Shown piece by piece: positions 15,344-56,778 of a DNA stretch of 64,000 nucleotides. The notes under the pieces were generated by a model. The model searched no databases and was not told the origin of the DNA. It saw nothing but the letters and a program-made list of their open reading frames with translations. The position numbers and the translations under genes were made by a program. The DNA is from Marinobacter oulmenensis (GTDB lineage: Bacteria > Pseudomonadota > Gammaproteobacteria > Pseudomonadales > Oleiphilaceae). The DNA lies in assembly GCF_014201735.1 (NCBI RefSeq), contig NZ_JACHFE010000002.1:496001-560000 (forward strand). Reading direction: 5' to 3'. Every line of letters starts with the position of its first letter. The stretch's first letter is position 1.

Positions 15344-16762
15344 TCAGTTCATCAATTCGCGGACATCAATAAAATGGCCGGTAACGGCCGCTGCCGCTGC
15401 CATGGCCGGGCTTACCAGATGGGTACGGCCACCGAAGCCCTGACGACCCTCGAAGTTCCGGTTGGACGTAGAGGCACAATGCTCGCCCTGCCCCAGTTTA
15501 TCGGCGTTCATCGCCAGACACATGGAGCAACCCGGATCACGCCATTCCAGACCGGCTTCGATGAAAACCTTATCCAGACCTTCCTGCTCCGCCTGGGCCT
15601 TCACCAGACCCGAACCCGGCACCACCATGGCCTGCTTGAGGCTCGGGGATACCTTGCGGCCCTTGACCACGGCGGCGGCTTCACGCAGATCCTCAATGCG
15701 GCTGTTGGTGCAGGAACCGATGAACACCCGATCCAGCTGGATGTCGGTGATATTCTGGTTCGGCTTCAACCCCATGTATCTCAGGGCGCGGACAATGCCT
15801 TCGCGCTTGATCGGATCGGCTTCCTGCTCCGGATCCGGTACCTTGCCTTCAACACCGGTGACCATTTCCGGAGAGGTTCCCCAGCTTACTTGCGGCTGAA
15901 TGGCGGAACCGTCCAGCTCGACGACTTTGTCGAATTCGGCATCAACGTCACTGTGCAGCGTGTTCCAGTAAGCCACGGCCTTGTCCCAGGTTTCGCCCTT
16001 GGGCGCAAACGGACGGCCTTTGACATAGTCAATGGTGGTGTCATCCACGGCCACCATCCCGACACGGGCACCGGCTTCGATGGACATGTTGCAGATACTC
16101 ATGCGGGCTTCCATGCTCAGGCCGCGGATCGCCTCGCCACCAAACTCAATGGCATAGCCGGTGCCGCCGGCGGTACCGATTTTGCCAATAATGGCCAGGA
16201 CCACGTCCTTGCCGGTCACGCCCGGCGCCAGCTTGCCATCGACCCTGACCAGCATGTTTTTCATCTTTTTCTGGACCAGGCACTGGGTGGCCAGAACGTG
16301 CTCGACTTCGGAAGTGCCGATACCGTGGGCCAGACAGCCAAAGGCGCCATGGGTAGAGGTGTGGGAGTCACCACAGACGATACTCATACCCGGCAGAGTC
16401 GCGCCCTGCTCCGGCCCGATCACATGCACGATGCCCTGACGCATGTCCTTGATCTTGAATTCCAGGATGCCGAACTCGTCGCAGTTTTTATCGAGAGTCT
16501 CCACCTGCGTCCGGGACACCGGGTCAACAATGCCGTCGATACCGCGCTCACGGTCGGTGGTCGGCACGTTGTGGTCCGGGGTGGCGATATTGGCGTCAAT
16601 GCGCCAGGGTTTACGACCGGCCAGACGCAGGCCTTCAAACGCCTGCGGCGAGGTGACTTCGTGCAGCAACTGCCGGTCGATGTAAATCAGCGCGGAACCG
16701 TCGTCCCGCTGTTTGACCAGATGGTCATCCCACAATTTGTCGTATAAGGTCTTGCCCGCCAT
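15344..16762 (-). CDS. leuC: 3-isopropylmalate dehydratase large subunit
   Basis: Aconitase-family subunit carrying a [4Fe-4S] cluster; with LeuD it interconverts 2- and 3-isopropylmalate. The 472 residues include the cluster cysteines in [12 protein letters not shown] and in GCSMCLAMN, and the substrate motif [13 protein letters not shown]. It is first in leuCDB and divergent from a LysR-type gene across a 581-base region. leuA is not in the window. Confidence 0.97.
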
Positions 16763-16929: not shown

Positions 16930-17042
16930 CGCGAGTCGGCGGGATGCCTTGCCAAAAGACGCTCGAGCCGTCCATGGGCGCTTGTTTCGGGCCATCCCTG
17001 GCCCTCAAAACTTTTGGCAAGGCATCCCCACCAACTCGCTCT
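16930..17042 (-). repeat. Palindromic structured element, copy 1 (leuC-facing)
   Basis: Perfect 18-base arms (GGGATGCCTTGCCAAAAG at 16941-16958 and its complement at 17011-17028) continue as an imperfect stem to about 16930 and 17042. Between them, read on the minus strand, are a hairpin GGGCCA-GGGA-TGGCCC and a second weaker hairpin with loop CATGGAC. The core aligns with copy 2 in about 44 of 54 columns when the strands are reversed. It is sense-oriented with respect to leuC, whose ATG lies about 170 bases downstream. Confidence 0.8.
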
Positions 17043-17170
17043 TGGGCGATTGCGCAAAACGCTCTCGTCTCCAAACTTTCTAATCCTTCACTGGAGGTGA
17101 GATTGGTATCAGAAGGCCTGACTTACATGACTTCAATACTATCCCGGCAACGGTGCGCTATTACCCAAGC

Positions 17171-17292
17171 GCGACAAGCGGTTTCAGGGGCCTTCTCCCA
17201 AAAATTTCGAAGGCCATGGATGGCCTGAGAGAAGCGCACATGGACGTGCTCGTAGCGGTTTTTGGGAGAAGGCCCCTGAGACCGCGACTATC
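17171..17292 (+). repeat. Palindromic structured element, copy 2 (LysR-facing)
   Basis: Arms at 17179-17204 and 17259-17284 pair over 26 bases with a single mismatch (GGGGCCTTCTCCCAAAAA is the central part). Inside are the hairpins AGGCCA-TGGA-TGGCCT and GCAC-ATGGAC-GTGC. It is homologous to copy 1 but in the opposite orientation, and it ends about 55 bases before the LysR-type ATG on the same strand. Confidence 0.8.
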
Positions 17293-56666: not shown

Positions 56667-56778
56667 GGGGTGACCCCATCAGCGATCCTCCGGCACACAA
56701 TTCCACCGCTGCGGCTGCTCCCTTCCGGGCCTGACCGGGTTCACGGTTTCATGTTGCGGAGGCACCAATGGGGCCACC
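56667..56778 (-). ncRNA. ffs: Signal recognition particle 4.5S RNA
   Basis: On the minus strand the invariant core GGTCAGGCCCGGAAGG is followed by GAGCAGCC, as in all SRP RNAs. The two ends pair: GGTGGCCCCATT at the 5' side with ATGGGGTCACC at the 3' side. Length about 112 nt; E. coli 4.5S is 114. It binds Ffh to target nascent membrane proteins. Ends are estimated. It sits upstream of dnaX, a common position. Confidence 0.93.

Follow-up and report, generated by a model that had tools for sequence, protein, structure and literature searches.

Paired intergenic repeats beside leuC in Marinobacter oulmenensis: a putative divergent, high-copy branch of the TwoAYGGAY RNAs and candidate CsrA-binding elements

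The TwoAYGGAY RNA family, reportedly described in 2010, is formed by a closing stem and two hairpins with A-Y/N-GGA-Y hexaloops, and its hairpin P2 contains non-canonical G-A pairs. A stem with tandem G-A pairs is a feature of this family, which on the grounds of its motifs has previously been proposed to be a CsrA-binding RNA (PMC4333381); no demonstrated function was found for it in the open-licence literature. The site recognized by CsrA/RsmA was defined by SELEX as RUACARGGAUGU, with an ANGGAN hexaloop and a preference for short stems, and a CsrA/RsmA dimer bridges two sites separated by 10-63 nt, most favourably by more than 18 nt (PMC7652899). ANGGA hairpins able to titrate CsrA/RsmA are present in CsrB, CsrC and RsmX/Y/Z, which are single genes for trans-acting sRNAs with many sites each. 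Other repeats of bacterial genomes, known as REP, BIME and REPIN, are dispersed intergenic palindromes that form head-to-head pairs and are enriched between convergent genes.

The window analyzed here is a stretch of 64,000 nt of the M. oulmenensis genome. As the initial annotation had described from the sequence, a pair of structured elements lies head to head between leuC and a LysR-type gene, the first on the minus and the second on the plus strand. Their location was correct, and the extents given for them, 16930-17042 and 17171-17292, were corrected to 16932-17038 (minus) and 17178-17285 (plus). The features of the locus are given below; P1 is the closing stem, P2 and P3 are the hairpins that it encloses, and R1 is a covariance model of the elements.

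15344-16762, minus strand: leuC (context), named from its sequence and from leuD/leuB lying beside it
16932-17038, minus strand: element copy 1, whole, upstream of leuC; match to model R1, 89.7 bits
17011-17028, minus strand: copy 1, inner and perfectly paired part of the P1 5' arm; beyond a one-base bulge the stem extends to ~17039
16941-16958, minus strand: copy 1, inner and perfectly paired part of the P1 3' arm; the stem extends to ~16931
16989-17004, minus strand: copy 1, P2 hairpin GGGCC-AGGGAT-GGCCC; its hexaloop with GGA (16994-16999) is CsrA-type site 1
16967-16979, minus strand: copy 1, P3 hairpin around CATGGACG (16969-16976); its hexaloop with GGA (16970-16975) is CsrA-type site 2
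17178-17285, plus strand: element copy 2, whole; match to model R1, 116.8 bits; 58 nt separate its end from the LysR-type start codon (17344)
17178-17204, plus strand: copy 2, P1 5' arm
17259-17285, plus strand: copy 2, P1 3' arm
17211-17226, plus strand: copy 2, P2 hairpin AGGCC-ATGGAT-GGCCT; its hexaloop with GGA (17216-17221) is CsrA-type site 1
17236-17249, plus strand: copy 2, P3 hairpin GCAC-ATGGAC-GTGC; its hexaloop with GGA (17240-17245) is CsrA-type site 2
17234-17235 with 17255-17256, plus strand: copy 2, outer GC/GC pairs of P3
17344-18237, plus strand: gene for the LysR-type regulator (context)

The pairing reported for the outer arms was confirmed: in copy 1, 16941-16958 and 17011-17028 are 100% complementary over 18 nt, and in copy 2 the figure for 17178-17204 and 17259-17285 is 96% over 27 nt. 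Counted past the one-base bulge, P1 of copy 1 comprises ~28 pairs in total. Read on their own strands, the two cores agree in ~44 of 53 columns, according to a visual count in the alignment of the copies of this genome, much as first noticed, and the compensatory change in P2, GGGCCA/TGGCCC against AGGCCA/TGGCCT, is real. RNA folding gave z-scores of -8.3 and -8.9 for the two elements, and none of 200 shuffles reached these values. Whichever strand is taken, the long stem gives both elements a much more stable fold than that of shuffled sequence (z from about -7 to -9).

This pair is the only occurrence of the element in the window according to R1, and it belongs to a large family of repeats. 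A BLAST search with the region as query found 39 matches, spread over many places of the same genome; when the copies were listed with their flanks, they consisted of a core of ~68 nt with flanks that are unrelated between copies but self-complementary. R1 was built from 27 copies of this genome and found the element, ~108 nt long, at 60 places in the 3.7 Mb, namely 56 intact copies (R1 score of at least 73 bits), three copies with an insert, and one weak hit. The initial annotation had suggested a scan of this kind and had named the absence of further copies with covarying stems as the outcome that would speak against it; such copies exist, both in this genome and in its relatives. The three interrupted copies (L017:2380-2567, L020:2246-2432 and L021:2370-2472, at genome places G000:C11:31445, C6:177804 and C1:639344) carry ~80 nt inside the P3 loop that are 97-100% identical over 62 nt among the three, form hairpins of their own, remove the second GGA loop and are absent elsewhere in the genome; the one insert of the three that was searched had no match in Rfam.

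The closing stem P1 has ~25-30 bp and encloses the short hairpins P2 and P3, each of which presents a six-base A-N-G-G-A-N loop closed by a C-G pair, with a spacing of 24-25 nt between the starts of both loops. No two copies have the same P1 sequence: the outer arms are on average 44% identical, part of which corresponds to a common GGG and CTTTCC. P1 cells are paired in 96% of cases among the 27 copies of this genome, where 25 of the 26 P1 pairs have changed on both sides and the covariation score is 0.703 compared with 0.175 in shuffles; for 67 matches from other genomes the values are 99% and 26 of 26, in an alignment that was fitted to R1 and so leans towards the model. Compensatory changes also occur in the stems below the loops of P2 and P3, in this genome as well as in others. 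The loops themselves hardly change. The sequence CANGGANG is present in both hairpins of all 56 intact copies (112/112 loops) and in both hairpins of 92 out of 104 copies from relatives, the remainder mostly keeping ANGGA or GGA. When loops are compared with GGA as the anchor, it is the two N positions that vary, the adjacent A being almost constant; although the anchor is part of the comparison, the pair of GGAs is missing in only 1 of 148 distinct cores, which is an interrupted copy. Many P3 loops are ACANGGANGU. This pair of invariant, CsrA-type ANGGAN loops, which the initial annotation missed, is the feature that tells most about function.

The initial annotation did not recognize the elements as a named family, an opinion that has to be revised. 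Rfam gives no match at the elements at gathering level; nonetheless, no Rfam family but RF01731, TwoAYGGAY (clan CL00106), comes up repeatedly at the copies of this genome; it is the top Rfam match for many of them, with 23-38 bits (up to 38.2 bits, and 23.2 bits for copy 1 of the window), below its gathering cut-off of 43 bits. A search of 116 genomes of the order with RF01731 yielded matches above the cut-off in nine other genomes, often as head-to-head pairs, and the matches below the cut-off fall on coordinates already found by R1. Since R1 and RF01731 match identical coordinates in several genomes and R1 recovers members above the cut-off with 52-79 bits (R1 and RF01731 score 79.4 and 52.7 bits at L121, 70.3 and 45.6 at L126, and 52.0 and 60.6 at L120), the sequence comparison identifies the elements as a divergent, high-copy branch of TwoAYGGAY that lies under the Rfam threshold. 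With the described family they share the closing stem, the two hexaloop hairpins and the G-A pairs of P2: read by eye in the alignment, tandem G-A pairs (YGA...GAR) flank the inner stem of P2 in two main subtypes, TTTCGAAGGCC and TTGAGGGCC, whereas in the GCGGAGCC subtype GGA is opposite GGA in P2 and the CTGTGGCC subtype has Watson-Crick pairs instead. They differ from it in scoring below 43 bits, in a shorter core and in the 56 intact copies per genome; in addition, the second letter of their loops is mostly T or G and sometimes A or C, which gives ANGGAN and not strictly AYGGAY. Two animal miRNA precursors, mir-642 and mir-4477, also appeared when Rfam was searched by E-value, and were discarded as chance matches to a long stem.

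Across the order R1 has matches in 38 of 116 genomes and in 30 of 83 genera (E ≤ 0.001), with up to at least 33 matches per genome. The family is also found in many other Gammaproteobacteria: a pattern scan of named genomes included, among the matches listed, Stenotrophomonas, Xanthomonas, Rheinheimera, Microbulbifer, Alteromonas, Idiomarina, Alcanivorax, Cellvibrio, Marinobacter, Yersinia and others, and R1 confirmed nearly all the loci listed. No match was obtained when collections of plasmids and phages were searched with the element. In Yersinia proxima an element of the family (L207:352-481) overlaps the sRNA Ysr224 (RF02770), which Rfam annotates on the strand opposite to the ANGGAN strand; this overlap hints that the region is transcribed.

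The placement of the elements relative to genes was examined in three genomes with genes called by a simple caller based on codon usage. None of 116 elements is inside a called gene. All 18 pairs run minus then plus, and 10 of them are located between convergent genes, an arrangement found in 56 of 364 neighbouring gene pairs (15%; p = 2e-4). For single copies between co-directional genes, the ratio of sense to antisense orientation was 21:7 in this genome and 10:10 in two others taken together (G014 and G017), with a pooled p of 0.06; in the sense cases the element mostly starts 10-90 nt past the upstream stop codon, in short gaps.

At the leuC-lysR site one or two elements are present in 10 of 16 species of the genus. 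Orthologous copies from different species have P1 stems that differ by compensated pairs (for instance, GGGTTGG/CCAACCC in G013 and GGGGTGG/CCACCCC in G005), which argues for a long retention of the elements at this place, as judged from these comparisons. In two species (G014 and G007; loci L039 and L041) the second element seems to have been deleted, leaving part of the outer stem, e.g. TTGCCGGCATA, and such remnants are as expected from a deletion stimulated by a palindrome. No target-site duplication could be shown at this site in the comparison of the genus, and the six element-free species (G001, G004, G006, G008, G011 and G012) are too diverged to give a base-exact empty site. Another palindromic repeat, GTAGGTCGGAT...ATCCGACCTAC, is located between the two leuC-lysR elements in four species (L039-L042, from G014, G010, G007 and G003), in one or both orientations.

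The elements have the features known for a CsrA/RsmA target, i.e. ANGGAN hexaloops in short hairpins and two such sites separated by a distance within 10-63 nt. A point against CsrA binding is that in a subfamily with long P2 stems the hairpins are more stable than the SELEX optimum. M. oulmenensis has a single csrA gene, whose canonical product has L4 and R44. It directly follows the sequence of an aspartate-kinase-like C-terminus, an arrangement also known from Pseudomonas. All 38 carrier genomes have csrA and the nine genomes with no match to csrA have no elements (p = 0.03, with phylogeny ignored); given that csrA is nearly universal in the order, this co-occurrence is weak support. The elements are probably CsrA-binding RNA elements, and the explanation that we favour on balance is that each of them is a divergent TwoAYGGAY RNA in which one CsrA dimer would bridge P2 and P3 upon transcription, and that the copies would act both as a titrating pool and in local control. 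The grounds for this explanation are observed, namely the anatomy, the covariation, the invariant loops, the membership in the family, the distribution and the intergenic placement.

From these grounds we infer transcription, CsrA binding, titration and local regulation, in the following manner. The long and locally unique P1 would hold up P2 and P3, whose ANGGAN loops would be the two halves of a single CsrA/RsmA dimer site. On a transcript that carries the element in its leader, in its 3' UTR or between cistrons, P2 and P3 could be bridged by one CsrA dimer; the 56 intact copies of a genome, with 112 loops, would jointly make up a dispersed pool that titrates CsrA, and locally the stability of the host transcript or the read-through would be tied to free CsrA. 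Such a system would resemble CsrB, CsrC and RsmX/Y/Z in its motif and differ from them in having one dimer site per element, dispersed between genes and closed by a long, unique stem. No description of dispersed repeats with CsrA sites was found in the open-licence literature; what is new here is the number of copies, their dispersed location, their arrangement in head-to-head pairs and a closing stem that is unique at each site. If the elements do bind CsrA, the capacity of titration of the Csr system would be spread over the genome and would vary among species with copy number. Dozens of natural copies in which the CsrA-type loops are invariant while the stems change freely make the proposal of CsrA binding directly testable.

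Covariation in P1 could have another origin. The initial annotation took the paired changes as direct evidence of selection on structure; the covariation stands, but for two copies and P1 alone that wording was too strong, because template switching that corrects imperfect DNA palindromes also makes the arms match, and for this reason pairing of P1 is no proof of RNA. If the elements were neutral inverted repeats kept perfect by this quasipalindrome correction, with no selection on RNA, a P1 that is nearly perfect in Watson-Crick pairs and unique at each site would be accounted for. Template switching is symmetric between strands, so G-T and A-C mismatches should be equally frequent; instead, the sense strand of P1, delimited by its Watson-Crick pairs only, shows G-U and A-C in a ratio of 43:5 in the set of this genome and 64:12 in relatives (20:6 when only the outer part of P1 was counted, in 28 copies). 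This origin also leaves unexplained the conservation of the loops and the compensatory changes in the short stems of P2 and P3, and we consider it very improbable. The wobble asymmetry favours a structure formed by one strand alone, that of the ANGGAN sense; as the folded strand, RNA is likelier than single-stranded DNA, although G-T pairs also fit the latter and a mutational strand bias is another option. Together, wobble asymmetry and loop conservation argue for a function of the single strand (RNA). A function of this kind could reside in the stem only, with P1 stabilizing the upstream mRNA or stopping transcription, as has been proposed for REPs, and with the loops being secondary. The very stable P1 and the sense copies placed in short gaps shortly after a stop codon agree with this possibility, which is nevertheless quite improbable considering that it does not explain invariant loops on changing stems, that the sense bias of this genome was not replicated in the other two, and that no T-run follows P1 in the copies listed. 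Intrinsic terminators, in which a T-run comes after a G+C-rich stem, are not supported as an identity: a terminator scan found nothing at the elements.

A mobile DNA of the REP/MITE type is a further conceivable explanation. Copies with identical 68 nt cores have arms that are unrelated and nearly perfect, and the three copies that share the ~80 nt insert have different arms. Either a mobile core receives newly made arms wherever it lands, or the arms are old and the cores have been made alike by gene conversion; how a core could be copied while nearly perfectly paired arms of 18-20 bp become new at each site is a puzzle. A core that a transposase copies as hairpin-forming single-stranded DNA and that acquires new palindromic arms per site, the GGA loops being the recognition signal of the enzyme and having no function as RNA, would fit these observations, the high copy number, the strictly intergenic placement and the uniformly head-to-head pairs enriched between convergent genes, and single-stranded DNA tolerates the G-T wobble as well. 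We regard it as unlikely, however, since the double match to ANGGAN would be a coincidence, no GTAG/CGTC-type tag was seen in the elements, no plasmid or phage matched, and orthologous copies persist across species at leuC-lysR. The elements also depart from REP, BIME and REPIN repeats in their length of ~108 nt and their two internal hairpins. A RAYT/Y1_Tnp partner is not supported: this genome has no intact Y1/RAYT gene, and 8 of the 38 carriers lack any Y1_Tnp match, some of them with 10-19 copies. Mobility and CsrA binding could also be combined, a tentative idea that we find rather doubtful, in which a dimer site ready for CsrA is spread through gammaproteobacterial genomes by an element that is selfish or has been domesticated; the core of this element would move or be gene-converted, a new stem would arise at each site, and the dozens of copies would set the level of free CsrA. 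If this were so, the buffer of a global regulator would be written into the intergenic regions rather than into one sRNA gene.

The only PF01797 match in the genome is what is left of a transposase gene of the REP-associated Y1 type, and it contains an in-frame TAG (G000:C6:31216-31437; L027). Integron attC sites were considered for locus L009, where three copies run in one direction, and no attC-like core sites were recognized by eye. In the window, positions 56674-56770 of the minus strand match the bacterial small SRP RNA with 74.8 bits.
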